Source: a virus. From it: 20,209 nucleotides of DNA. The position numbers were made by a program, and so were the translations under genes. Below are positions 5,574 through 19,911 of the stretch, piece by piece; positions within the stretch are counted from its first letter, which is position 1; each line of letters starts with the position of its first letter. The stretch covers positions 1 to 20,209 of IMG/VR virus record IMGVR_UViG_3300023174_000764. One strand, 5' to 3'. The notes beneath the pieces are model-generated. The model did not search any database and was not told where the DNA came from. It worked only from the letters and a program-made list of their open reading frames with translations.

Positions 5574-6266
5574 TTATTTACCTGATGGTGCTATCGGGGG
5601 TATTGCAAACAATGCACCGGGTGTTTTATAAGATGTGTCTAACTGTGCCCACAAGGTCATGCGAGACATGTCGTACCAATCTTTCCAAAATGCACGTCCC
5701 ACTAAAGATGGATCGTCATAGTTCTTCATTGCTATTTTAGCAGCTGCGTATGCTGGCAGAGCTTTTAATAAAATGTCATCAGGTGCAAATGAAAATGTTC
5801 CAGATCCAGCTAAAATTGGCGTAGCACTAATTGCTCCAGTTACATCAACTGTTACAGCAGTAGCAGGTTTTGGATATAGACCTAATTGGTACGGGCCATT
5901 TCGATACCAATACTGTGGTGCGCCAGTGGTATTTAAATAATTGTAGTTAAATGCTTGTAACTCTTGCTCGCCACAGTGAGTTAACACACTTGACGAAATA
6001 ATAACAACTTGTGGATACCATAAGGCTGTGTTTGCAAATGAGTTTACACGAGCAGTGGTTGTTACAATTTGTATAGTTCCCTGTTCATAACAACAGGTGC
6101 GCGTCATTTCTTCAGCGCCTTCATTTAAATAATCTAATATTGTGTCGTTAGACGACACAGTTGCAGCGCCACCGACACCAGTGGCTAATTCACCAACGAC
6201 ACTAGCATTAGTCTCATTAAGTAATTTAAGTACTTCATTTCGTAATACAGTAAAGCCGAGAGCCAT
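5574..6266 (-). CDS. Head-tail adaptor-like protein (second copy)
   Basis: A 230-residue protein. A helical N-terminal part (VLRNEVLKLLNE; ILDYLNEGAEEMTR at 43-56) is followed by strands and then by the conserved-looking APQYWYRNG...LGLYPKP (116-134) and a C-terminal helical block with APDDILLKALPAYAAAKIAM at 161-180 and WKDWYDMSRM. This helix, strand, 'PQY' and 'Y/LPxP' pattern, ending in a helix that lists monomers, fits the adaptor family that joins portal to tail in podovirus-like phages. The upstream gene at 6266-6913 shows the same pattern, suggesting an old duplication. The ATG overlaps the upstream stop (TAATG). The function is inferred from pattern and position after the capsid genes. 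Confidence 0.65.
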   Translation of the reverse strand: MALGFTVLRNEVLKLLNETNASVVGELATGVGGAATVSSNDTILDYLNEGAEEMTRTCCYEQGTIQIVTTTARVNSFANTALWYPQVVIISSSVLTHCGEQELQAFNYNYLNTTGAPQYWYRNGPYQLGLYPKPATAVTVDVTGAISATPILAGSGTFSFAPDDILLKALPAYAAAKIAMKNYDDPSLVGRAFWKDWYDMSRMTLWAQLDTSYKTPGALFAIPPIAPSGK

Positions 6267-6913
6267 TACACAGATCTCCGTATATACATGGCAGCATTTG
6301 ACTCTATATGGCCCAACCTGTCAAGGTATTCACTCTTGTAAATTGTCATACCATCTATATCACGCAACTGCATAGCGCGTAAATATAACACGTTATAAAC
6401 AAGGCAGTCGTGAGACATTTCAGGTAAGGGACATGGAGTAGCATCTGTGTTTGCTAAAGGACTGCCAGCTGAATTGTATTGCCAGTTATCACCCGGTTGT
6501 GCGTATCCTTCTATTAGTAGTCCATTAGTAACGCTAACACTAGGAGGTGGTAATAATACAATTTTGTTCATACCGTGAATGGCACAGTATTGAGGAACAT
6601 ATTCAGCTGGTTGATTTCTGTAGTCATCAAGAATCTGATCACTAAAGCTTGCAAGTTTGATTTCATTGTAATCTCCAGTTTCATCTTTGATCCGGATTAC
6701 TCTAATTTTGTAGACGTCAGGGGAACAATAATCACTTGTTCCCCCGACTGTAGAAAGATATCGCCTTCCAACAAAACAATCTGTTTTACGGGCAATATCG
6801 TTAGCTGCCTCAATAATAATGTAATCTAGGCCAAACGGATCTCGATCATGCTCGCCGCCAAAATAGTGACGACCAATCATGCGAACCTTTTGTTTAATTT
6901 GACCTAGATTCAT
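6266..6913 (-). CDS. Head-tail adaptor-like protein (first copy)
   Basis: A 215-residue protein with an N-terminal helix (QIKQKVRMIGRHYFGG), a second helix (YIIIEAANDIARKTDCF at 31-47), a beta section (YKIRVIRIKDETGDYNEI), the segment VPQYCAIHGMNKIVLLPPPS at 106-125, and C-terminal helices (MSHDCLVYNVLYLRAMQLRD). This matches the layout of phage adaptor proteins bound beneath the portal. AAGGA lies seven bases upstream of the ATG at 6913. The gene follows the decoration-like gene by 10 bases and overlaps the second adaptor-like gene by one base. Two such genes side by side would fit a two-layer neck. The role is inferred; no enzymatic motif is present. Confidence 0.67.
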   Translation of the reverse strand: MNLGQIKQKVRMIGRHYFGGEHDRDPFGLDYIIIEAANDIARKTDCFVGRRYLSTVGGTSDYCSPDVYKIRVIRIKDETGDYNEIKLASFSDQILDDYRNQPAEYVPQYCAIHGMNKIVLLPPPSVSVTNGLLIEGYAQPGDNWQYNSAGSPLANTDATPCPLPEMSHDCLVYNVLYLRAMQLRDIDGMTIYKSEYLDRLGHIESNAAMYIRRSV

Positions 6914-7786: not shown

Positions 7787-8857
7787 TTATGCGATCTGTA
7801 CCGCAAGACGGCCAATAGAGCGAGTGTTCTGTGCCATAAGACCACAACCCCACTCAAACAGGACATTGTGCATGACACCATTTTCCTGCGACTTACCAAG
7901 GTATTCAGGCTTTAATGGCTTAGGCTGCCAGCCTTCAAGGTATCCCTTGCCGTAACGAACTGCATAAATTGTAGTTGCGTCAGCTACAGATACAGTAGAA
8001 CCAGCAGCGTTTAGCCACTGAACTGTGTTACCTGAACCACTTGGAATGACGGCAGTAGTACCATCAGACTTACGTCCAACAACACGAATCTTTGCACTCT
8101 TAAACATTTCAACTGGTCGGTCAAAGTTATCTTGAGTTACATCAAAACCAGAACCAAGACCCATAACACGAATAGCCATTTCAAAATGGCGCTTCGTCTG
8201 CTCGTTCATGTAAAGGACAATGCCGTCACCATCAGGTGAAGACATGTTGTCAAACAAGTTTTGAATATCATGCATTAAACGGTTTGCAGCACCAGAACCG
8301 GCAGTAGCAGAAGAAGCAGCTAAGATGTTTGAAAATGACAAGTTTGCCGTAGAAGCAATGTTCATGTCTGCTGCAATATCAAACTGCTGCCAGTTGTCAA
8401 GGCGATACTTTAGTCCGGGGAAACAGTCAGACGAGTTGCCAGCAACTAACGACGTTGGGTCGTTATTAACGAACTTGTCGTTAAAGTCGTAGCTGAAACC
8501 CTCCATAAACATTTGAACCTGAGCATCAACAGGATCAATAATTGCATCAGGCTGGTCAAGCAAAACATGGTCAACGGTAATCATGTTACGCATGATGAAC
8601 AACTGTTCTTCATACGACTTTGGCTTACCCTTAATTGCTTGTGGCTGTGCATTAATACCAGTCCACGTAGGAAGTGGAATACCGGAGTTGGTATAACGCA
8701 AACCAATCTGACGTAAGGATGGGGAAGTATAGAAAGGAATATCCTTTACTGCGTTCCACGTTTGATGAAGAGATTTTGTGATCTCCTTGACCATTGGATC
8801 ATTCGATAAAATCGCCTGATCAGCAAGAGTCAAAGCACCATTAAAGTCAATAGCCAT
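7787..8857 (-). CDS. Major capsid protein
   Basis: A 356-residue protein placed after portal and scaffold, where tailed phages encode the major capsid protein. It starts MAIDFNGALTLADQAILSND and contains a helical segment followed by PLPTWTGINAQPQAIKGKP, then a long helix region (LFIMRNMITVDHVLL) and later GDGIVLYMNEQTKRHFEMAI, which resembles the spine-to-A-domain region of HK97-fold proteins. The C-terminal part has AVRYGKGYLEGWQPKP. An AAGGAGG Shine-Dalgarno six bases before the ATG is the strongest in the window and fits the high expression expected of a coat protein. The HK97 fold is inferred from size, context and general look; I did not align it. Confidence 0.87.
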   Translation of the reverse strand: MAIDFNGALTLADQAILSNDPMVKEITKSLHQTWNAVKDIPFYTSPSLRQIGLRYTNSGIPLPTWTGINAQPQAIKGKPKSYEEQLFIMRNMITVDHVLLDQPDAIIDPVDAQVQMFMEGFSYDFNDKFVNNDPTSLVAGNSSDCFPGLKYRLDNWQQFDIAADMNIASTANLSFSNILAASSATAGSGAANRLMHDIQNLFDNMSSPDGDGIVLYMNEQTKRHFEMAIRVMGLGSGFDVTQDNFDRPVEMFKSAKIRVVGRKSDGTTAVIPSGSGNTVQWLNAAGSTVSVADATTIYAVRYGKGYLEGWQPKPLKPEYLGKSQENGVMHNVLFEWGCGLMAQNTRSIGRLAVQIA

Positions 8858-8869
8858 TTATGGCCTCCT

Positions 8870-9751
8870 TTACCGAATACCTAACATTCTTGAGAATATG
8901 CCACTTGAACTCTGGCGGACAGGTTCAGATTGGCGAACTACGGGAAGAGCTGAATCAGCTGTACTAATTGGAGTGGGAGCGCGTCGTTGTTTAGCAACCA
9001 TTTCTGCTAACTCTGGCACCATGCTTTCAATTAGGCCTTCGACTTGGCTATGAACTTGTTCGGCTGCCTCACGTGGTGACATACCTGCATTCATCAAGTT
9101 GTCAACCATTTGAGTAGCTCTTCGAGCGTATGGGAATTCTGTAAATGCAGCATTGCGTTGTTGCTGCTGCAGTACTCCATTTACTTGCTGATTTAGTTTG
9201 TCGTACCTATATTTTGTAATTTCAGCTTCGGCTTGCACTTCAGCTAAATGTGGATCAAGGTACTGATCAGTTTGAGCAGTTAACCATTTGTCGCGGATTT
9301 GTTGTTCGTACTGTTGTTCTTGTTGAGACTCAAGTGCTCTACGTACATCATCAGCTGAGTTAAAACCATTTTCCTCAAACTGCTTGATAACATCAGCCCA
9401 TTGGTCAAACTTAGATTGAACTTCGCGTCCAACTTTGGCTTGCTCGTTGACTTCCCTGAATCTTTCGTATGGAACAGCTTCAGGCTCAGCCCTACCTAAA
9501 TTATCTAATAGTCGCTGACGAACTTCTTCTTCGGCACTATATAGATCTAAAGCAGCAGACCACTCTTCGTCATAACCGTCATCACCATCGGCTTCTGTAG
9601 CTGTGTCATTTTCAGAATCGTTTAACGCCCAGTTCTGATTATCGTCAGTGGCGGCCTGACGTACATGATCAACAATTGCAGAACCAATACCTGTTTCGCC
9701 CGGTGCCGCTGCTGGTGAGTCAGCGGTTCGCATCACCATCTCTTCGGACAT
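8870..9751 (-). CDS. Capsid scaffolding protein
   Basis: A 293-residue, highly charged and helical protein between portal and major capsid genes. Residues 30-75 are strongly acidic (TEADGDDGYDEEW). Residues 93-104 carry VPYERFREVNEQ, a motif type common in phage scaffolds ahead of the coiled coil. Residues 105-255 are a Gln/Glu-rich coiled coil (LESQQEQQYEQQIRDKWL). The end is Pro/Ser-rich and finishes in SSGIFSRMLGIR, a small basic-hydrophobic helix of the kind scaffolds use to dock on coat protein. The protein guides procapsid assembly and is then removed. The ATG at 9751 directly abuts the portal stop (TAA ATG). No protease domain is visible. Confidence 0.82.
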   Translation of the reverse strand: MSEEMVMRTADSPAAAPGETGIGSAIVDHVRQAATDDNQNWALNDSENDTATEADGDDGYDEEWSAALDLYSAEEEVRQRLLDNLGRAEPEAVPYERFREVNEQAKVGREVQSKFDQWADVIKQFEENGFNSADDVRRALESQQEQQYEQQIRDKWLTAQTDQYLDPHLAEVQAEAEITKYRYDKLNQQVNGVLQQQQRNAAFTEFPYARRATQMVDNLMNAGMSPREAAEQVHSQVEGLIESMVPELAEMVAKQRRAPTPISTADSALPVVRQSEPVRQSSSGIFSRMLGIR

Positions 9752-12118
9752 TTACAATATACCCTCATCTTGTTGCATTGTGCCAACGTCTTGCATTGGC
9801 ATCGATTCTTCCATAGGCATAGAGCCACCCTGTTGCCGTTGCATAATTGCTTGGCGAGCACTTTCTGGATTAAACATTTCCTCTTCAGGTTGTTCTTCTT
9901 CCATAGGTGGCATAGGTGGCCGTAACTGTGATTCCATCTCGCCCATCATCCCACTCGTGCTATCTAAACCAGATGGCATGCCACCTAATTCATCTTGCGA
10001 TTCAAGACCAGCCTTTGCTGTCAACAGTGTAATATCTGCCTCTAGCTTTGCCTGTATCTCTGCACGTTTCTTCGCAATATCTATTTCAGCCTTTGCTTGC
10101 TCAGCTTCCATATTAAATGTTGGCTGTTGTTGCTGTTGAGCCTGTGCTTGCATTTGCATCTGCGCTTGCATCATTTCTTGTTGTTGAACTTGAGCTTGTT
10201 TAATTTTGTTCTGCTGTTGTTCAAGGTGGTCAAGAATCTTAGATGACTCAGGCATATTCACCAACTCAATAAACAACTTGTTGGTGTCAGGATCAGCCGG
10301 GTCTCCAAAAATACCCATCTGTCGTAATGTTGCATACTTTTGCAATCGTGCTTCTGGCCCATCATCCATTGCAGATCCGGGAACATACACAATGCGATAC
10401 TGCCCACCACTGCGGATTGCATCAAATCGCATTACCCCTTGTTTCTGTTGATCCTTTGGAGCATTGTCTTCTTGCATATTTCCTACAAACGGAACAATAG
10501 CAAACTGCTGGACTAACGAAACTTCCCACTCTTTAATTTTGTAGTTACTAATTTCAATGTCTGCACGTACGTAGCTATGTTGTGTATTGTCAGCCTTTTG
10601 CAATAAACGTACAGCTTCAGCTGGTGTACCCGCTTGTGCCATACCTTGACTTACGTCATGCAGGCCTGCTACATCTGCCATATCTTTTTCAATAAATTGA
10701 AGTACTGGAAAGATGTCACTACCAACACCGGGCGCTCGCACAATTTGCGGAGGTTGCGATCCGCGATCATAGTAGATCTTTCGGTAAATACGATTGACAT
10801 CATCAATTGTGTCACTCTTATTGTCAAATGCATCAGCGCCAATTTTACTTAGGCGCTCAACCATAATGTAGTCTTTTTGACCCTCAAACTGCTCAAGTAA
10901 CTTGGACCAAAGGCGGTTATACATCAACTGCAGCTGAGTTAAGTCAAACCCAAGGCTATAGCCATAAGGGGTTCCCGCACGAGGCTGCCATCGCAAGGGA
11001 ATAAACGGAAACGCATCACGCTTCTCGTATGGCCAGATACCAGCATAAAGAAGTTGTGAGTTTGTAGAAACTATGTAACGACCCTTTGGATAAAGAGCAC
11101 TAGGCTTTTCCCAATACTCGTACACAGTTGCAGCATGTTTTCTTGCATCGTAACTTGATTGTCTGGCTGGTGTTGGATTGGTGTATCCGAATCCGCTTCC
11201 TGCCGCGCCATCAAGATAATTGTCCACATAACTAGCATTGTTTCCGGTGAGTGCATCTGCTTTTACTCGCTTTCCGATCTCGCCGTATGAGTCAACAAAC
11301 CAACTCAAAGGCTTAACCATTGCATGTATCAACCAGCGCACGTCATCGTCTTGCTTAGCTGTAGGATCTAAATAAACATCAAAGGCAGGAAGGATTTGCT
11401 CAACAACATCACCAGCTTCAAATTGCTTGTGACCAACAACGTCCTTACCAGAAGAATCATAGAGTGGAACAACCTGACTCTTATTACTGTCCCAAAATAC
11501 TTTTAAATAGCTTGTACCGCAAACGCATGCCCATCTAACACGTTCTTTGAGTTGCGTTTCTCGACCAAACTTTTTGGCATAATGCTTAATAATATAATTT
11601 GCTTCATCTGCTGCTTGGCGATCACGATCATTTTCAGATAATGGAACAGCACTTGCGTCTGGACTACCTTGAGTTAACTTACCAACCACTCCATCAATTA
11701 ATGGCCTCATCTTATTTACAACTACATATCGAGTAGGCTCTTTATGGTTCTGTAACTTCACTAAATTACGAGCATTGCTGTTAATGCGAAACCACTGTCG
11801 TCCTTCAAAAAACGCGACAGATAGCGCCCACTCAGTTTCCATTTCTTGCCTAGCTCGCTGTGCAGTTTCAAATTGATTTTTTACAAAATCACAAACCTTC
11901 ATTGCTTCTGCAGGAGTTTCAGACGGTAGTACTTCCCAGTCTTTTTCTTCTTGATCTAAATTTAAATTTTCTGATTCATTTAATTTTGGATTTGTAAGTT
12001 TTTGAGCACCAAGTGTTCCTTCATGTTCCGGAACTTGAAATGCAGTCATCTGTGGTTTTTGCCCACCACCGCGTAACATGTTTGCCAGTTTGCTTGGATC
12101 AATAAGTGATTTCCTCAT
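9752..12118 (-). CDS. Portal protein, P22-type long portal
   Basis: A 788-residue portal, the dodecameric gate for DNA entry at one capsid vertex. The first part after residue 70 has a helix followed by EWALSVAFFEGRQWFRI, VVVNKMRPLIDGVVGKL and NDRDRQAADEANYIIKH, all typical of P22-type portals. A stem/clip region includes LQLMYNRLWSKLLEQFEGQ. The C-terminal 150 residues are a Gln/Met-rich coiled coil (QVQQQEMMQAQMQMQAQAQQ) followed by an acidic, Met/Pro-rich tail likely to be disordered or barrel-like. I choose ATG at 12118 because GGAG sits seven bases upstream and the ATG overlaps the preceding small gene as ATGA; a TTG at 12124 would be only a few bases from the GGAG. Length agrees with long P22-like portals. 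Confidence 0.88.
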   Translation of the reverse strand: MRKSLIDPSKLANMLRGGGQKPQMTAFQVPEHEGTLGAQKLTNPKLNESENLNLDQEEKDWEVLPSETPAEAMKVCDFVKNQFETAQRARQEMETEWALSVAFFEGRQWFRINSNARNLVKLQNHKEPTRYVVVNKMRPLIDGVVGKLTQGSPDASAVPLSENDRDRQAADEANYIIKHYAKKFGRETQLKERVRWACVCGTSYLKVFWDSNKSQVVPLYDSSGKDVVGHKQFEAGDVVEQILPAFDVYLDPTAKQDDDVRWLIHAMVKPLSWFVDSYGEIGKRVKADALTGNNASYVDNYLDGAAGSGFGYTNPTPARQSSYDARKHAATVYEYWEKPSALYPKGRYIVSTNSQLLYAGIWPYEKRDAFPFIPLRWQPRAGTPYGYSLGFDLTQLQLMYNRLWSKLLEQFEGQKDYIMVERLSKIGADAFDNKSDTIDDVNRIYRKIYYDRGSQPPQIVRAPGVGSDIFPVLQFIEKDMADVAGLHDVSQGMAQAGTPAEAVRLLQKADNTQHSYVRADIEISNYKIKEWEVSLVQQFAIVPFVGNMQEDNAPKDQQKQGVMRFDAIRSGGQYRIVYVPGSAMDDGPEARLQKYATLRQMGIFGDPADPDTNKLFIELVNMPESSKILDHLEQQQNKIKQAQVQQQEMMQAQMQMQAQAQQQQQPTFNMEAEQAKAEIDIAKKRAEIQAKLEADITLLTAKAGLESQDELGGMPSGLDSTSGMMGEMESQLRPPMPPMEEEQPEEEMFNPESARQAIMQRQQGGSMPMEESMPMQDVGTMQQDEGIL

Positions 12119-12252
12119 AACCAATCTCCAGTCTTGTTAATTTCCTTGATTATTTTTTCCACTCGTTGATCTTTCAATTCTTTAAGCACTTCATACATCC
12201 ATACCAATGTAAGAATTCCAAATAAAGCCTCAACAACGTCACGGACTTGCAT
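12115..12252 (-). CDS. Small membrane-type protein between terminase and portal, 45 aa
   Basis: A short gene that exactly fills the gap between large terminase and portal. Its ATG at 12252 overlaps the terminase stop (TAATG) and its TGA overlaps the portal ATG (ATGA). The protein is MQVRDVVEALFGILTLVWMYEVLKE and then a charged helix with QRVEKIIKEINKTGDWL. Residues about 6-20 are hydrophobic and the rest is amphipathic and charged, so it may sit on the membrane with one short N-terminal helix, or it may be a small helical assembly factor. No family is recognised. The double overlap, the fit to the spacing and a frame open across the whole gap support coding. Confidence 0.63.
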   Translation of the reverse strand: MQVRDVVEALFGILTLVWMYEVLKELKDQRVEKIIKEINKTGDWL

Positions 12253-13991
12253 TAGATCCAATCCTTTTGCGCGTTATTACTCATCCAGCTTGGCAGATTT
12301 TCCTGATTGCGAATTCGTTCCGATCTAATCTCAGGACATTCTACTGGATATTTCCTCCACATTGCCCCATACCTCATGCTGTCAATGGCGTGATCATGTT
12401 TTGTGCCATTGTCAATTTCATCTGGATCACGTGGAGATGCCATTGTTTTTTCTAACTGTTTGATAATATTTGGGCATTTGTTTCTAACTATTTGGAGTTT
12501 AGATCTACGTTTCCCTGCAACAAATTCAGACGCATCAAGTAATTCTTTCATTTGTGCCCAGCCAGCTTTTCTGTCTTTAACTGCACGGACACATGGTAGT
12601 CCCATGTTCCACCAAATCTCGACTGGGTATTCACCAATTCGTTCTTCAATTTTTGCAGGAGGAAAAGTGTTTGCCCAGTCAAAAGCAATAGCTTCTAGTT
12701 TTGTTGCCCATTGATTGCGCTCTTTTGAAACACACTTTGCTAGTTCAAACTGCTCTAACATCTTTGCAACATTAGTTGCTTGACTTGAACTAACGTGACC
12801 TGCCTCATACCATTCAGATAACAAATACACATTCTCGCGTTCGTCAGATGCAAACAGTATCGTACAAGCTGGAGCACCCGTACCGTAGTCATGACTTGCC
12901 CAGAATCTCCACCAAGGTTGAATTTCAACATGGTCAACCACATGCCATGGGTTACCCTCATTATCATATTCTCGAAATTGTGGAAAGAATCTACCGCCAA
13001 CGCCAACATCATGCTGACATTCTCGTAAAAACGATGTTAATCCAAACGTATCAATTTCATCTTGGCAGACCTCAATATTTTTGTGCTTCCAAGCTGGCGT
13101 CCCACCTGTAATTTTGTAACCAACACGACCATTGTCTCGTTCACATGGCGTATATGTAAGATCCCAGATAGCTGGAACTTTAGGTGATTGAATACGATTT
13201 TGTAGCATATCAATCTCACCTGATAAGGTTCTAGTCATAACGCTATTACTATGAATGGCATTTTGTACAAAAATAACTGCGCAGTCAATACTTCTGGCTG
13301 GAAGAATTGTAGCAGTCATTGTTTTTATTTTTTTCTCCACGCGATCAACAGAGTCATCAAGCTCATCAATGTCGTCAAAAATAATGATGTCAGGACGTAA
13401 GTGGTCAAGCTTAACACCACGAGCACCAGTGTCCAAACCGAACGCAAGAACATTAAAGCCATTGGAGGTGCGTAACTTACTTGCACTCCATCCCTTTGAA
13501 AATCCATATTGGTTTACCGCTCGCTCAATACCACATTTTTCCATTGCACTTGCAATATCGTTTACGTGCCTATTTGCTGCATCTTGTGTGTGGCAAACAT
13601 ATAAAGCAAAGCGCCTTGTAGCCTTAACTGCTAATCGTGAAATGATAAGTTCAACGGTAGTTGATTTACCACCACCTCGAAACCAACATTCAATCAACGC
13701 TGGCGCGGATGCACCGGGGGTTAACTTTTCAGCCCATTCCCATGCTCGTATGTGATGTTCTGCTAAATCTGCATTAGCGGAATGCCTTGCATAAGACTTT
13801 AACCAGTGCTTGTAATCTAGTTCGGCTCCGGCTATAGGAATAGCTTTACCGCTATCAAAGTCACCTAGTTGTAATGTAGTTCCTAATTCATCTTCAAGTG
13901 CTTGTAATAAGCTAACTGATAATGACTTACCGCTTTGCATAAAAGGCTTTAACTTACGTGGAGTTAGTGATTTACCAATATTAGTTTTCAT
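12252..13991 (-). CDS. terL: Terminase large subunit (ATPase-nuclease)
   Basis: A 579-residue packaging motor. The ATPase domain carries a Walker A-like RGGGKST at about 105-111 and a Walker B with IIIFDDIDE at about 203-210. The adenine-binding and coupling region lies between (YVCHTQDAANRHVNDI). The C-terminal RNase H-like nuclease domain begins near 365, with the first acidic residue in ASHDYGTGAP, a second in AIAFDWAN (about 438) and a third in KHDHAIDSMRYG (about 531-541), the usual metal-binding trio. It cuts concatemers and drives DNA into the procapsid through the portal. The ATG at 13991 is preceded by GAGG at six to seven bases; a TTG one codon upstream is possible. It overlaps the small terminase-like gene by 11 bases. 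Confidence 0.92.
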   Translation of the reverse strand: MKTNIGKSLTPRKLKPFMQSGKSLSVSLLQALEDELGTTLQLGDFDSGKAIPIAGAELDYKHWLKSYARHSANADLAEHHIRAWEWAEKLTPGASAPALIECWFRGGGKSTTVELIISRLAVKATRRFALYVCHTQDAANRHVNDIASAMEKCGIERAVNQYGFSKGWSASKLRTSNGFNVLAFGLDTGARGVKLDHLRPDIIIFDDIDELDDSVDRVEKKIKTMTATILPARSIDCAVIFVQNAIHSNSVMTRTLSGEIDMLQNRIQSPKVPAIWDLTYTPCERDNGRVGYKITGGTPAWKHKNIEVCQDEIDTFGLTSFLRECQHDVGVGGRFFPQFREYDNEGNPWHVVDHVEIQPWWRFWASHDYGTGAPACTILFASDERENVYLLSEWYEAGHVSSSQATNVAKMLEQFELAKCVSKERNQWATKLEAIAFDWANTFPPAKIEERIGEYPVEIWWNMGLPCVRAVKDRKAGWAQMKELLDASEFVAGKRRSKLQIVRNKCPNIIKQLEKTMASPRDPDEIDNGTKHDHAIDSMRYGAMWRKYPVECPEIRSERIRNQENLPSWMSNNAQKDWI

Positions 13992-14697
13992 CAACTACCT
14001 CAGCATCTATAACGTCATCTTCTTGATATTGACGTAGCAACTGTCCAATTCCTGTTTTGATTGCGCTCATCTCTTCCGCGTCTTTAACACTTTTTTTGAT
14101 TACACCTAAAACCTGCATAATCAAACTGTAGGCTTGATCAACTTCTAAGATATAGGATTTACTTTGCAGCATTTTTTGTTCAGTCTCTACAATAAATGCT
14201 CGTTGCCGAATCAAATCAATCAAAGAATCAGATGCTGCTGTTGCATCTGCTCCATCACGAACAGATGTATCTAAATGATCAATGAGCTTGGTCACCTCAT
14301 CAAAATTTGAGCTTTTCCATTCGGCTTTTAATGCTTTAACTAAACCTTTAATTTCAATGTAGTGTTCAGTTGTTATGCCTTCTGTAATTGCCTCTGCCCG
14401 TACGTCAAGTAAAGCAGTGATATAAGCAGCATCATCTTTCAGTGACCACAACTCTGGGTCATCACGTAGTTCTCGAATACGTGTTAATAATTTTGGTGCT
14501 ACTGAAGCAAACCTTTCGCGGTTCATTCCAGACAGCCCAGTTTTAAATGTAGGTGAATTTATATTTCGTGTTGCTTTTGATACGTGAAAACCACATAAGG
14601 TATGCCCGTCCATTGCATTTCTCTTACACTGGCTCTTTTCGCCATGTCTGGTAAAAGTAGCAACGCACCTTTGATTTACCTTCTGTAATTCATTCAT
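13981..14697 (-). CDS. Terminase small subunit-like protein with N-terminal Cys/His motif
   Basis: A 238-residue protein directly upstream of and overlapping the large terminase. The N-terminus has C11, C24, C35 and H38 in RCVATFTRHG..SQCKRNAMDGHTLCGFH, a zinc-ribbon-like 'C..G..CKR..G..C..H' pattern seen at the start of many phage small terminases and related proteins. The rest is helical (PKLLTRIRELRDD, ALLDVRAEAITEG, a region near 150-190 with QRAFIVETEQKML) with an acidic C-terminal tail (DDVIDAEVVDEN). The small subunit recognises phage DNA and regulates the motor. Assignment rests on the motif plus gene order. The ATG at 14697 has no Shine-Dalgarno; instead a 13-base box lies nine bases upstream, shared with the regulator gene at 19985. 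Confidence 0.75.
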   Translation of the reverse strand: MNELQKVNQRCVATFTRHGEKSQCKRNAMDGHTLCGFHVSKATRNINSPTFKTGLSGMNRERFASVAPKLLTRIRELRDDPELWSLKDDAAYITALLDVRAEAITEGITTEHYIEIKGLVKALKAEWKSSNFDEVTKLIDHLDTSVRDGADATAASDSLIDLIRQRAFIVETEQKMLQSKSYILEVDQAYSLIMQVLGVIKKSVKDAEEMSAIKTGIGQLLRQYQEDDVIDAEVVDEN

Positions 14698-14706
14698 ACT
14701 TTAGCA

Positions 14707-14719
14707 TACTGTAAGTAAT
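14707..14719 (-). promoter_or_regulatory. Putative operator/promoter box upstream of small terminase gene
   Basis: Read on the minus strand, ATTACTTACAGTA begins at the last base of the upstream stop codon and ends nine bases before the ATG at 14697. The same 13 bases stand nine bases before the ATG at 19985. The core TACT-TAC-AGTA is an inverted repeat. It almost fills the 21-base gap, the largest inside the operon, and TACAGT could also serve as a -10 element. Function is inferred from the repeat and spacing only. Confidence 0.5.
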
Positions 14720-15297
14720 TACTTTTTAATAGGTTGTTTTTTTAGAGGCATTTTATTTTGTTGTGGTTTACCAGTAAATAAATCAGCTAATGCCTGTATG
14801 GTTGGCGTTGCATATTTGACTGGAGTGTTTATGACGTCTCCAACTTTGGAGATACCAGTCATTCCTTTTTCATACATAGGATTTTCTATTATCTGCTTTG
14901 CAATAGGCTTTAACAGTGGGCCATACATTTTTAACCACATTGCTCGATTTACTGCATCAGGATTGTTATTTACTATTGATTCATCATCTTCAATTTGTTT
15001 TTTTAATTCGTAATCACCGAACATATTGTATGCACTGTCAATACCAAGATTAACATATGGAGCAGCTCCACCACTTAGTTGCGCAGTTAAATAATCTTGC
15101 AGCGCATTTCCACCTATTTGCGACAAACCATATGTAACTGCTTTTTCTCTTTCTGCATCATCATCTGATGCTAATCCACGCAATGTTGCATCAACACCAC
15201 CAACATAAGGCATCACCCCCATTAGATTTGCTGCTAATGGGAGTGTTTTTCTTACCGTTTTGCCTAGAGGTGATTTACTTTTTTGCTGCATTTCCAT
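14719..15297 (-). CDS. Glycine/alanine-rich helical protein, 192 aa, partner of the giant protein
   Basis: A 192-residue protein of unknown family. Residues 18-40 (TLPLAANLMGVMPYVGG) and 56-92 (GLSQIGGNALQDYL, GGAAPYVNLGIDSAYNMFG) are Gly/Ala-rich and mildly hydrophobic, the middle is acidic (QIEDDESIVNNN), and the C-terminus is basic (KQPIKK). The gene overlaps the end of the giant gene by about 20 bases, so the two are coupled. The start is ATG at 15297 or at 15291 (two codons shorter); GAGAG lies directly before the first. Amphipathic small proteins next to a giant virion protein are sometimes ejection or internal capsid proteins. I make that only a hypothesis. The next gene is the small terminase-like gene, 21 bases away. 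Confidence 0.65.
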   Translation of the reverse strand: MEMQQKSKSPLGKTVRKTLPLAANLMGVMPYVGGVDATLRGLASDDDAEREKAVTYGLSQIGGNALQDYLTAQLSGGAAPYVNLGIDSAYNMFGDYELKKQIEDDESIVNNNPDAVNRAMWLKMYGPLLKPIAKQIIENPMYEKGMTGISKVGDVINTPVKYATPTIQALADLFTGKPQQNKMPLKKQPIKK

Positions 15298-18200
15298 CTC
15301 TCACTTGTTGCGATAGATTACTTCTAACTCGATCACCAAATACACCTGCTGCTGCCGGAACTAACATCATGCCGGGTTTTTTAAGTCTGGCTAGTAATCC
15401 CTTACCCTTTGCCTTCTGAGCCTGATCTCCAAGCGTAACGCCCTTTGTACGCGCAGGAGCTGGCATAGCAGGTGTTGCACCCGCAATCATTGATGAGGCG
15501 CCGACTTTACTTAAGTCAAACTTACTACCAGCTTCAAACCTTAAGAATGCAAGCGCTGTGTTTAAGTCATCTCTATTTGTTGAAAAACGAGGACTTCTTG
15601 TCAATTGATCAATTGTTCTACCCGATGCTAATTCTTCAGCTACAAACTTAATGTCTTTAGCTTCATTTGTAGTAACTTGATCTGGCTTACGTGCACTCGT
15701 GTTCCATCGATCAATATCTTTGTTGACTTTCTCAATCCATTCTTCTGGCTTAAGCTCACCCATAAATTGTTGTGGTACATAATTTGACCCAACGGTTTCA
15801 CCAGTTTTTACTTGAAAACCCTTGCCAGTTGGACCCTTTACTCCTGTTGGTGTACCCTTTGGAGGAGCTTCACCAGTTTGTTCTTGGCGCTCGACATTTT
15901 TAATAGCAAGGTCTGCAGTTGGATTTTGACGACCACGATTTTTAGCTGGTGGTCTAGGGATACTTCGTTCAAGTGCTACTGAAACAGCCCTTTGCAATGA
16001 AGTTACTTTAGTTATTGCCTCTTCCGGTGATTTAGAATTTGCAATGATTGACAGCAATCCTCGTTGTCGATTTGGATCTTTTAAGAAATCGCTTAATGCT
16101 TCGGCTTGCAATGCTGCTTTAACTTCACCAGAAACATCGCGCTTTTCAATAGCATCATATTTCTTTTTAAAATCTGGATTCCAAAATTGAAATTCTTTAC
16201 TGGCTGGGCCTAAACGTTCAGCCATTACATTAATAGCTTGATAGGCTACATCAAACAATGCAGGTGCTTCTATTACTTGTGAACGAGCAACACCTTGTGA
16301 ACCAGATAGCTGTCTAGGTAAAACGTTACCTTCTCGTAATCCTTTTAAAATTCCATCTATACCAGCAACTAATCCGTCCGTCTTACCTTTAGTAGATATG
16401 CCATCTCCAAGTAATTTTTTTGATTGCTCAGGAATAGCACGTAGGATTTTAATTAATGCTTGAAAATTTACATCCTTATCTGCTTTGCCATACTCAATCA
16501 TTCCTGCTACGCGATTAACACCAAGACCTTGAATTGCAGTCCGTACAGACGTCCCAAGTAAACCTTCAGTTAGTTGTTTGCGGCTATATGCAACGGACAA
16601 TCTTCCAGCGTCTTTAACATATTGATTCCATGCATCTGGATTTGCATTAATTTTTTCAATTAATCCGTCTGGTGCATATCCAGTAGGTGTTCTTCCGTCT
16701 GGGCCAATTACATATGGTGATATTCCAAATGTTTTATATCCACGAACAAAACTTAAAACAGTTTCAGGAACATCTACATTAAGCTCTGTACGCTTTGCTT
16801 CTTTTATTAATTCTCCCTGTACATCAAGAAGCGCCCTGCGTTGCTTTAATCTTTCCGGTAGGTTTTTATCACTTACAATTACAGTATCGTCAGAAACTTT
16901 CCCTCCACGCATATTTTTAAATACTGTTAGTAGTTGCGAATCTTTTGGGGCTAAACCCATAAGATCACCCCAGAATTTTGGAGTTGCTACTCCTTGATTA
17001 GAAGCAATAGCTAATAATTTTGCGTTAAAGTCATAGGGAGACTTTTTATTAGCAACTGCAAGTTCAGGATTTTCAGAAACTAAAGTTTTAAATCTGTTAT
17101 TAATCAACTCTTCTACTTTAGGAGTTTTAAGTTGGCTGATGGCATCATTAAGTAAAAATTCACCTTCAATGCCCTTTCCCTTAATTTGAATATCTCCATC
17201 TTTAGTAGTAGTAACTTGTGCGCGGGTTAATCGTGCTAAATTACGAACTAATGTTTCTTGCAGTATTCCAACTTTTCCGTAATCACGTGGGATTGGTTTA
17301 CCTGCTGCATCTACGTCTAATGGCCTATATGGACTACGAGCTAATGTCTTACTTACACTATTAGGTAGCATAAGTTTTAACTGTTCTGGCGTAGCATATG
17401 GTGAAATCTTTTTTGCAAACATTCCCCAGTCAGGTGGATTCTGAAGTAATGCTGTTGTTGCTTGCTTAACCCTAGCTTCAAATGCACGAGCAGATGCAGA
17501 ATTAGGGTTTTGATCTGTACCTGAACCAAACCAGTCAAGTTTAGTAATTTGTTCTACGGCATTTGTGACATCAAGTCTTTGAGCAGCAGAAACAGCTGGA
17601 CCAGATACAGGTTTACCACTAAGAGGATCAATAAGTGCTCCAGCTTTTCCAACCTGTGCACCTGTTTTCATTGCCTCCATTAATTTGACAGCACTTTGGT
17701 TTCCGGAACCAAGTGTCTGAGATAGCAATCCTCGTTCTGCTAATTCGGCAACATTTGCATTAAGTTGTGCCATAAATGGAGATTTAGCTTTAAATAATGC
17801 TTCAACTAAACCAAGAACAGCTTGTTGCTTTCCACCTATTGCAGTACCGGCATATTTTTTATCAAAATCCTCGCCAATTCGTTTTACTGTAATAGCTCTG
17901 GCTGCACCCATAACCTGTTCTGTAAATTGCCTAGTAACATCTTTGACTGTAACTCGACCTTCTTCAGCCCATGGCTCTAGATCTTTATTGGCAACCTTTA
18001 AATCTTTCCATTCATCATATGTATTACCTGCTTGTAACCAACCGGGCAATCCAAGTCTAGAAAGGTTAGCTAAAGTGTCTTGACCTTTTAATTTTGATGA
18101 AAGTTGCTTACCTGCACCAAATTGTCCTGCTTCTCGCAAAACACCATCAAACATATCTTGCGCCTTGGCAAGAGTTTCGTTTTTAATATTTTCTGGTACA

Positions 18201-19354
18201 CCATTAGCCGGGTCAGAAAGCAATCCATTAAGTGTAACAAGATTGCCAAATCCTTCAGCAATAGCAGTTCTATTTGCTCCAGAAGAACTTGAATAAACCC
18301 TAGCTACACCCTCAAGGTACTTATTTGCATCTGACGCAATTGTTGTGTCAAACTTAGATCCACCAAGGTCAGTTGCTGTTCTTGTTATTACATTCATGCG
18401 ATCAATAGCAGGTTTTTCTACAAATGACCGCAAAAATGAACCCGGAGCTTGATTGCCAATAGATCTTGTAATGATGCCAAGTAATGCAGGGCTAGTTTTT
18501 GGAATACTTTCAACATCTAAATTAGATTGAAATGTTTTTGCCGCACCAACAGTACCTGCATCTTCTACGCCTACTGTTGATTCCTTGTAACGAGAGATTG
18601 TTTCATCTAGTAATTTGTCGTAAGCCGCAGAAGCCTTAAGTGGGGCTTCACGGGATTGCTCAATACGTGTTTTGATGTCGTCTTGAATAACTTGAATTGG
18701 GCGACCAGTGCGCTTAGCAATGCTTTCAATTTCAGGAGTAGCTCGCTCAAGGAATGCATCCATATCCATTGAGCCTGAAAAAGATGATGTACCTCCAACC
18801 GCAGGACGTGTATTACCACCAGCTTTTCCGCTAGTGCGTACCTTTTGTATTGGCTTGTACACATTAGGAGATACTGTTTCACCAGTTGCACCTAATCCAC
18901 GAGTAACTAGTTCTTCAGTATCAATCTGCCCGATTTGACTAGCTTCTAGCTTATCGCCCTGTAACTCAGCTTTAAATTCACGAGGTCCGGGTTGTGACGG
19001 AGTAGTTGCTTTTAAGAAGTCAAATGGATCAACAACTGTAGTTGCAAATTTTGCAATACCAAGCCGTTCAAAAATAGGACGAGCAACGTTATTAACTTCG
19101 TCCTTTGATGCTCCTGAAGTAATTAAACGACGCAGAGATTCTTCGTCATCTGGATTTTTTGCCAGAATGTTAGTAATTCGCGCTTTTACTAGACGCGGTA
19201 CGCCACTTGTATCTTCAGCAGGTGGACCGGGAGCAGGAATTGCAGGTGGAGCTACAGGCTTTATTGGTGCTCCCTGACCAGCCATAGCTTGATCAACTTT
19301 TTGTTTATCAGTATCTGCTGGATTGCCTAGTAAAAGAGAACGAAAAGATGCCAT
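15275..19354 (-). CDS. Giant protein of unknown function, 1359 aa, candidate internal virion/ejection protein
   Basis: The largest gene here. GGAG six bases upstream supports the ATG at 19354. The N-terminus is Pro/Ala-rich (KPVAPPAIPAPGPPAEDTSG at 32-51) and probably disordered. The body is mostly helical and soluble, with many Lys/Asp-containing helices and no Walker, protease, transglycosylase or polymerase motif that I can see. Near the end there is a linker (PPKGTPTGVKGPTGKGFQ), then further helices, a basic stretch (KGKGLLARLKKPG) and a short hydrophobic stretch (MMLVPAAAGVFGD), which looks membrane-active. Length, helix content and the coupled 192-residue partner fit an internal or DNA-ejection protein, although those usually follow the tail genes and this one precedes the terminase. 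It could also be an unrelated enzyme. Function unknown. Confidence 0.75.
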   Translation of the reverse strand: MASFRSLLLGNPADTDKQKVDQAMAGQGAPIKPVAPPAIPAPGPPAEDTSGVPRLVKARITNILAKNPDDEESLRRLITSGASKDEVNNVARPIFERLGIAKFATTVVDPFDFLKATTPSQPGPREFKAELQGDKLEASQIGQIDTEELVTRGLGATGETVSPNVYKPIQKVRTSGKAGGNTRPAVGGTSSFSGSMDMDAFLERATPEIESIAKRTGRPIQVIQDDIKTRIEQSREAPLKASAAYDKLLDETISRYKESTVGVEDAGTVGAAKTFQSNLDVESIPKTSPALLGIITRSIGNQAPGSFLRSFVEKPAIDRMNVITRTATDLGGSKFDTTIASDANKYLEGVARVYSSSSGANRTAIAEGFGNLVTLNGLLSDPANGVPENIKNETLAKAQDMFDGVLREAGQFGAGKQLSSKLKGQDTLANLSRLGLPGWLQAGNTYDEWKDLKVANKDLEPWAEEGRVTVKDVTRQFTEQVMGAARAITVKRIGEDFDKKYAGTAIGGKQQAVLGLVEALFKAKSPFMAQLNANVAELAERGLLSQTLGSGNQSAVKLMEAMKTGAQVGKAGALIDPLSGKPVSGPAVSAAQRLDVTNAVEQITKLDWFGSGTDQNPNSASARAFEARVKQATTALLQNPPDWGMFAKKISPYATPEQLKLMLPNSVSKTLARSPYRPLDVDAAGKPIPRDYGKVGILQETLVRNLARLTRAQVTTTKDGDIQIKGKGIEGEFLLNDAISQLKTPKVEELINNRFKTLVSENPELAVANKKSPYDFNAKLLAIASNQGVATPKFWGDLMGLAPKDSQLLTVFKNMRGGKVSDDTVIVSDKNLPERLKQRRALLDVQGELIKEAKRTELNVDVPETVLSFVRGYKTFGISPYVIGPDGRTPTGYAPDGLIEKINANPDAWNQYVKDAGRLSVAYSRKQLTEGLLGTSVRTAIQGLGVNRVAGMIEYGKADKDVNFQALIKILRAIPEQSKKLLGDGISTKGKTDGLVAGIDGILKGLREGNVLPRQLSGSQGVARSQVIEAPALFDVAYQAINVMAERLGPASKEFQFWNPDFKKKYDAIEKRDVSGEVKAALQAEALSDFLKDPNRQRGLLSIIANSKSPEEAITKVTSLQRAVSVALERSIPRPPAKNRGRQNPTADLAIKNVERQEQTGEAPPKGTPTGVKGPTGKGFQVKTGETVGSNYVPQQFMGELKPEEWIEKVNKDIDRWNTSARKPDQVTTNEAKDIKFVAEELASGRTIDQLTRSPRFSTNRDDLNTALAFLRFEAGSKFDLSKVGASSMIAGATPAMPAPARTKGVTLGDQAQKAKGKGLLARLKKPGMMLVPAAAGVFGDRVRSNLSQQVRDGNAAKK

Positions 19355-19368
19355 GAGTTACTCCACTA

Positions 19369-19641
19369 CTACTTCTTTTTAATGCCAAGCATTTTACTCA
19401 TTGACGCTGGCTTTGTATTCATCATTGGTTTACGGCCAGACATAAGTTCGCGAGGAACACGATCGCCAGTCTTTAATCCAATTGCTCGTGCGCCAGTTGT
19501 TGGTTCGGATGTAGATGGTGCTGGCTTTGCCTTTGGGCCGTAACCCATCTCACCATAAGGAACCTTATCGCCGGTCTTCATGCCAAGCGCAGCAGCACCA
19601 GTTGTTGGATCAGAAAGCTTACCGCTTTTACTTTTTTGCAT
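19369..19641 (-). CDS. Small basic protein with two tandem repeats, 90 aa
   Basis: A 90-residue, Gly/Lys/Pro-rich protein. Residues 11-29 (DPTTGAAALGMKTGDKVPY) and 46-64 (EPTTGARAIGLKTGDRVPR) are clear repeats, joined by a Pro/Lys linker. It ends SMSKMLGIKKK, close to the scaffold end SRMLGIR. It is likely to be intrinsically disordered and has no membrane segment. GGAGG lies six bases before the ATG at 19641. The gene is separated by 12-14 bases from both neighbours. No function is known; repeats and a basic tail would fit a capsid-internal or DNA/capsid-binding peptide, but this is inference. Confidence 0.7.
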   Translation of the reverse strand: MQKSKSGKLSDPTTGAAALGMKTGDKVPYGEMGYGPKAKPAPSTSEPTTGARAIGLKTGDRVPRELMSGRKPMMNTKPASMSKMLGIKKK

Positions 19642-19653
19642 AACGTACCTCCA

Positions 19654-19911
19654 CTAACAATCCCAAGCCCGTAACGATTTATTAATTCTACTATTTGGAT
19701 CATTAGCAGTTTTAGCAGATGTTCTAGTTTTTTTCATGCCTTCCATTCTGGCACAAAACGACTTACGCCTAGACGCATCCTTATCTGTCTTAGGATTTGG
19801 GGCTGGAGGCTTGAGTTTAGACCCAGTAGTGCGATTAAAATGAGCACGACCGGCAGCATTTAAGCCGCCACTTGGGTTTTGGTACTTTTTAATAACTCCC
19901 ATAGTAGACAC
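19654..19911 (-). CDS. DUF6321-like small protein, 85 aa
   Basis: An 85-residue basic protein with the marks of a small phage-associated domain I recall as DUF6321: an N-terminal NPSGGLNAAGRAHFNRTTGS, then RRKSFCARMEGMKK (49-62), and an ending SAKTANDPNSRINKSLRAWDC. The Cys in KSFCARM and the C-terminal WDC/WKC are typical of that group, which is found in many uncultured and cyanophage genomes, without known function. The frame starts with GTG at 19911, preceded by TAAGG five bases away; the ATG at 19902 (82 residues) is the alternative but its AAGG is 14 bases away. It is the first gene of the leftward operon, next to the divergent regulator. Confidence 0.75.
   Translation of the reverse strand: MSTMGVIKKYQNPSGGLNAAGRAHFNRTTGSKLKPPAPNPKTDKDASRRKSFCARMEGMKKTRTSAKTANDPNSRINKSLRAWDC

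Follow-up and report, generated by a model that had tools for sequence, protein, structure and literature searches.

Which function could a phage assign to a single giant gene placed just ahead of its terminase? The viral DNA analysed here, a stretch of 20,209 nt called the window below, carries an open reading frame of 1359 aa at 15275–19354 on the minus strand, which we named BIG. The original prediction described its product as a giant protein without recognisable domain, possibly a new kind of internal protein ejected with the DNA or an effector carried in the virion.

BIG is a genuine gene under purifying selection

BIG formed a single unbroken frame from its ATG to a stop codon, and the plus strand across the same interval was full of stops and closed. 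The gene takes up 4080 of the 20,209 bases, about a fifth of the window as had been stated. Its ATG lies 14 nt past the end of the upstream gene, as in a tight operon, and its 3′ end overlaps the next gene (14719–15297) by 23 nt. Promoter and terminator scans gave nothing informative.

Relatives of BIG were found in 13 IMG/VR contigs besides the window, and the window and 12 of these contigs were analysed jointly, the fragment on L029 being left out. The family fell into three classes that are only 20–46% identical to one another. Class A (L001, L002, and L007–L010, with identical proteins in L008 and L010) is 59–74% identical to the BIG of the window, and class B (L027/L032, L014, and L033) 41–46%. 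Class C (L028, L034, and L035) is 23% identical, encodes 1353 aa in the same place, and was joined to the family by profile–profile comparison (probability 97.5%, E = 6.6e-12). An apparent second BIG piece at L001:2–124 duplicates some 40 codons of the BIG on the same contig and is probably an assembly artefact of the contig end.

The dN/dS values of BIG within classes were 0.077 (L008–L009), 0.053 (L034–L035), 0.120 (L001–L002), and 0.148 (window–L010); in the last pair, the large terminase subunit (TermL) and the portal gave 0.025 and 0.050. Between classes (window–L032), the value was 0.412, with synonymous sites near saturation. BIG is therefore under purifying selection. The lengths of its full-length relatives (1353–1405 aa), together with dN/dS values of 0.05–0.15 in four within-class pairs, show that it is no chance reading frame. 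Searches of 50,697 phage records returned no relatives, and the 85 stretches of genome contigs that matched the search pattern contained none. Weak relatives (E below 1, under 60 bits) were likewise absent among the reading frames of the collected loci. BIG thus represents a real, conserved family without known relatives.

No known domain or fold was found in BIG

PHROGs and NCBIfam gave no match for BIG. The single Pfam match, to DUF4142, stayed below the cut-off (14.3 bits against 27; 12.9 bits for the L008 copy). In PADLOC, an oligonucleotide-cyclase model matched residues 822–918 of the window copy (16.3 bits, E = 0.0012); this match was missing in two other family members scanned and was judged a chance result. 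Profile searches of the PDB gave no match with the BIG alignment A3 and five weak matches with alignment A6, the best to an enoyl reductase (E = 0.016 over 88 positions), which were also judged to be chance. Domains of T7-like single-subunit RNA polymerases were not found in Pfam, in the PDB, or by comparison with the N4 polymerase, and no enzymatic or effector domain exceeded any curated cut-off in PHROGs, Pfam, NCBIfam, or PADLOC. When the BIG profile was compared with single known ejection proteins, the best probability was 3.8%, with a sensitivity limited by single-sequence targets.

AlphaFold models of the two halves of BIG were poor (mean pLDDT 57.4 and 64.1; pTM 0.29 and 0.43), and Foldseek searches of the PDB with them returned nothing below E = 0.4. 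The claim of no recognisable domain was thus borne out in the libraries searched (Pfam, PHROGs, NCBIfam, PADLOC, and PDB), where no convincing match to a non-virion enzyme, the counter-evidence named with the original prediction, appeared either. The models are helical, as had been proposed for the long body of the protein, albeit at low confidence.

The proline-rich start was confirmed, with 8 Pro in residues 30–45. The tail described as basic and hydrophobic is basic, the last 59 residues carrying a net charge of +10, but its hydrophobicity is weak, with a best 19-residue Kyte–Doolittle mean of 0.96 near the C-terminus. Strong transmembrane segments were absent from BIG and from the product of the next gene, p192 (best window means 1.17 and 1.13). 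The window copy of BIG contains neither Cys nor His, so that catalysis depending on either residue and zinc sites of the usual kind are excluded for this copy.

BIG lies in the virion gene block of a probable short-tailed phage

All assigned genes of the virion block are on the minus strand. The block begins with p85 (19654–19911), which matches DUF6321 (E = 1.5e-24) and is 84–99% identical wherever it was detected in the relatives; p85 also resembles the C-terminal ends of several larger PHROGs. It is followed by p90 (19369–19641; 90 aa, no Cys or His), BIG, p192 (14719–15297; 192 aa, no Cys or His), and p238 (13981–14697), a putative small terminase subunit by position, for which no profile match above cut-off was obtained. 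The N-terminal stretch of p238 contains its three Cys and several His and has the look of a zinc site, with a weak WRC match below cut-off. Next come TermL (12252–13994; phrog_38, E = 3.6e-27), a P22-like portal (9752–12124; PF16510, E = 8.3e-31), a putative scaffold of 293 aa (8870–9751; placed by position, no profile match), and the major capsid protein (7787–8857; phrog_212, E = 3.7e-27). After the capsid gene are a gene for 309 aa, two adjoining genes like the SU10 adaptor (6266–6913 and 5574–6266; PF24175, E = 4.4e-14 and 3.4e-12), a holin gene, and further tail genes. A dual tubeA arrangement appears in the description of Sulfitobacter phage phiGT1 (PMC10386132).

BIG is thus located ahead of TermL as reported, with two genes (192 and 238 aa) in between. 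It is encoded within the virion gene block and not after the tail-tube genes, the usual place of ejection genes, although that place does not define them; in none of the eight reference podoviruses did ejection genes occupy the place in front of TermL. Seven phage records contained a TermL similar over 34–43% of the protein at 24–29% identity: three Rhizobium phages, Roseobacter CRP-212 and CRP-235, Pelagibacter HTVC033P, and one unannotated record. In CRP-212, RHph_N3_13, and HTVC033P, the hypothetical proteins encoded past the portal were considered as BIG homologues and received no profile support.

The P22-like portal and the SU10-type adaptors suggest a short-tailed phage, known here from its genes alone. 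A long, Cys-free protein with helical low-confidence models might also be the tape-measure protein of a long-tailed phage, like lambda H. This is highly improbable, since portal and adaptors point to a short tail and BIG stands before TermL, not among tail genes.

Relatives carry a putative conventional ejection set in addition to BIG

Four long contigs of relatives (G001–G004, 60.8–66.5 kb) include the region after the tail genes, a place before which the window ends. There, they encode proteins of 268–285, 591–643, and 3733–4232 aa with 0, 0, and 0–3 Cys, respectively (277, 617, and 3741 aa in G001). From position and composition, we take this trio, which is arranged much like the ejection genes of N4, to be the conventional ejection set. 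No profile named any of these proteins. The giant gene lies at 19047–30272 in G001 (L036, L037) and at 9639–22337 in G003, on the minus strand in both and after the tail genes, as in G002 and G004. The searched pieces of the giants of 3733–4232 aa gave only weak matches to Peptidase_M78 and RepB below cut-off, and profile searches gave no support for the 3741-aa protein as an N4-like RNA polymerase. An endolysin-like gene with CHAP and Cu_amine_oxidN1 matches (L036:18265–19047, minus strand) adjoins the 3741-aa gene.

The BIG slot of G001–G004 encodes 1405, 1372, 2178, and 1353 aa, all Cys-free. In a profile comparison, the 2178-aa protein of G003 had no detectable relationship to BIG. Two small genes upstream of it, G003 encodes another Cys-free protein, of 510 aa (L040:12520–14052), with a match to the 3D domain family PF06725 (E = 1.2e-10) and a PDB match to YuiC (E = 6e-8). 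Proteins with 3D domains of the YuiC kind cleave peptidoglycan. Ejection modules often do so too, an example given in the account of SU10 being gp20 (PMC9509320). Among the 29 reading frames of at least 500 aa in G001–G004, 11 were Cys-free, and these belonged to the conventional set, the BIG slot, and the 510-aa protein.

BIG as a replacement of the conventional ejection set therefore fails for G001–G004. Since relatives have this set as well, BIG looks like an extra module and not like a displaced ejection protein, so that the original idea of an ejection protein in an unusual place needs this amendment.

BIG and p192 are exchanged as a unit

Comparison of the window with L027/L032 showed 97–99% identity for p85, p90, p238, and TermL, whereas BIG (last 320 codons) and p192 were 46% identical each. 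At the DNA level (150-bp bins, window against L032), identity dropped near 19,400 and recovered near 14,720, with 46–75% inside this interval and 86–100% in the flanking bins. This confinement of low identity indicates that BIG and p192 (about 14720–19400) were replaced together, the crossovers lying at the ends of this unit or close to them; p90 is outside the unit. Between L027 and L014, BIG was 76%, p192 74%, TermL 90%, and p238 76% identical.

Between G001 and G002, identities were 95% for TermL, 91% for the portal, 89% for the capsid, and 87% for the scaffold, compared with 56% for BIG and 81% for p192. The conventional set gave 68% (277 aa), 64% (3741 aa), and 41% (617 aa), the second adaptor and the DnaB helicase 75–76%, and the tail-fibre genes were less alike still. 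By these identities, BIG diverges like the presumed ejection-type set and faster than capsid, portal, and terminase. As tail-fibre genes diverge fast too, fast divergence alone does not single out an ejection set.

BIG shares the absence of cysteine with most reference ejection proteins

All 13 BIG family members examined, with 15,301 aa in three classes, lack Cys. They contain 30 His in total, so that only the absence of Cys is general in the family. The 19 other window reading frames examined contain 0.99% Cys and 1.13% His; in a simple binomial estimate, the chance of zero in 1359 aa is about 1.3e-6 for Cys and 1.9e-7 for His. The p192 slot was Cys-free in 10 of 10 copies examined and the p90 slot in 9 of 9 (proteins of two kinds). 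Cys was present in p85 (3/3 examined), p238 (4/4 examined), and TermL.

As a control, 60 reading frames of at least 500 aa from nine reference phages (SU10 and N4 in part) were inspected. Of those labelled ejected or tape-measure, 14 of 17 were Cys-free, compared with none of the other 43. N4 gp51, three epsilon15 proteins, two LUZ24 proteins, and lambda H, whose label as ejected or tape-measure proteins came from position or customary assignment, were Cys-free in 4 of 7 cases; the exceptions were the epsilon15 proteins, with 1, 1, and 2 Cys. Where the label came from a record (N4 gp50, T7 gp15 and gp16, P22 gp16, phiGT1 gp18 and gp19, Syn5 gp44 and gp45) or from passages of a paper (SU10 gp23 and gp24; PMC9509320), 10 of 10 were Cys-free. 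Without a size limit, 13 of the 14 ejection proteins of SU10, N4, T7, and P22 lacked Cys, T7 gp14 having one, and the other genes examined in these phages, mostly virion genes, had 0.73–1.07% Cys. Three further partial records contained 17 reading frames of at least 500 aa, two of them Cys-free: RHph_N3_13 gp103 and HTVC033P gp66. The latter (L004:15000–16931, 643 aa) is annotated as a putative tail fibre and counts against the rule; it may be an exception or a misnamed gene. Low Cys is thus a feature that correlated with ejection proteins in this analysis and does not define them.

For N4-like virion RNA polymerases, the absence of Cys and its explanation are already in print: the literature on N4-like phages that treats injection of this polymerase links the missing Cys to passage through tail and periplasm in the passages concerned (PMC3715699, PMC3915230), and a passage of PMC4837373 notes the absence too. 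A limited literature search found no statement of a general rule for ejection proteins; the review PMC8954989 and the N4 paper PMC12633501 never use the word cysteine.

Cys-free proteins also include the T7 and P22 scaffolds, the putative scaffold of the window, and some other proteins under 500 aa. Considering this and the place of BIG in the head gene block, it could serve inside the head as a structural or scaffold-like protein without being ejected. We regard this as improbable, because non-ejected Cys-free proteins in SU10, N4, T7, and P22 had 401 or 405 aa at most, and head genes diverge slowly (87–95% identity between G001 and G002), which BIG does not. A non-virion protein of the infected cell, with Cys missing by coincidence or bias, would accord with the PADLOC cyclase match and with a phage known from genes alone. 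Besides the failure of that match in the two other members scanned, Cys is absent in three divergent classes and in an unrelated protein of the same slot, while p85, p238, and TermL contain it, which makes this explanation quite improbable.

Proposed role of BIG

Cysteine freedom, divergence rate, and module context make an internal protein ejected with the DNA the best-supported reading, as originally proposed; against it stands that none of the ejection proteins tried matched BIG in sequence or fold. BIG probably belongs to the ejection type and to an additional, exchangeable module located ahead of the terminase.

Known systems resemble BIG in part. Kuravirus SU10 has related adaptor genes and, according to the description of gp20–gp24 in PMC9509320, Cys-free proteins that leave the head and reach 1473 aa in length; these have no sequence similarity to BIG, and their genes follow the tail genes. 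N4 ejects a giant Cys-free protein, the virion RNA polymerase gp50 (3500 aa), with the smaller Cys-free partners gp51 and gp52, in a layout similar to the 3741/617/277-aa set of the relatives. However, BIG is not similar to gp50–gp52, lies elsewhere, and has no polymerase match. The internal proteins T7 gp14–gp16 and P22 gp7, gp20, and gp16 are Cys-free in 5 of 6 cases but differ from BIG in sequence and gene position.

We propose that BIG would be packaged in the head with the DNA and ejected with it into the cell. A protein without Cys would escape disulfide bonds, which would otherwise arise in the periplasm or obstruct its way through the tail; this is how the absence of Cys in N4-like polymerases has been explained. 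The co-exchange and gene overlap of BIG and p192 suggest that the two act together. It appears likely that they are part of, or accessory to, a channel through the envelope and are matched to the present host. Given the lack of strong transmembrane segments in both, they would have to assemble in order to insert into a membrane.

Alternatively, a packaged and ejected BIG might counter host defences or help to take over the host from within the cytoplasm, as an effector comparable to P1 DarB and other large polyvalent proteins, and the exchange of BIG with p192 would reflect an arms race with host immunity. BIG shares with these proteins its size and its place beside virion genes, typically near late genes in the polyvalent proteins described in PMC5512222, which are presumably packaged; exchange as a unit would also fit. 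However, no library searched revealed an enzymatic domain in BIG, whereas the class needs at least two, and DarB has 9 Cys in 2255 aa, in a single comparison. The missing enzymatic signature and the Cys of DarB lead us to favour the channel-associated role and to consider an effector rather doubtful. Since the Cys-free N4 polymerase acts in the cytoplasm, the absence of Cys cannot discriminate between these roles, and this preference is weak.

The C-terminus of p90 provides a further lead. The putative scaffold ends in FSRMLGIR and p90 in SKMLGIKKK, which, after the scaffold itself, is the best match to the scaffold end among 19,851 octamers of G001 and 19,116 of G002. This likeness was noticed post hoc. 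In G004, the best octamer was the C-terminus of another Cys-free protein, of 142 aa, and in G003 it was internal to the giant protein, so that a tag on p90 fails there. The N-terminal FRSLLLGN of BIG, considered as a similar tag, did not rank in the top 14 octamers of either G001 or G002. As a lead only, p90 is a possible loading factor for BIG. Tentatively, and with more doubt than confidence, one may picture a second swappable ejection module before the terminase, formed by p90, BIG, and p192 or by unrelated replacements (510 aa with the 3D domain, 2178 aa, and 309 aa), in which the scaffold-like tag of p90 would bring the cargo into the procapsid and BIG with its partner would be swapped between phages by recombination as a host-adapting cartridge.

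The low sequence similarity among ejection proteins makes them difficult to recognise. If the test for missing Cys in long phage proteins holds, many unannotated giant phage reading frames could be sorted, and ejection modules outside the usual place would become visible. A swappable second ejection module, if true, would mean that phages exchange their entry machinery much like tail fibres.
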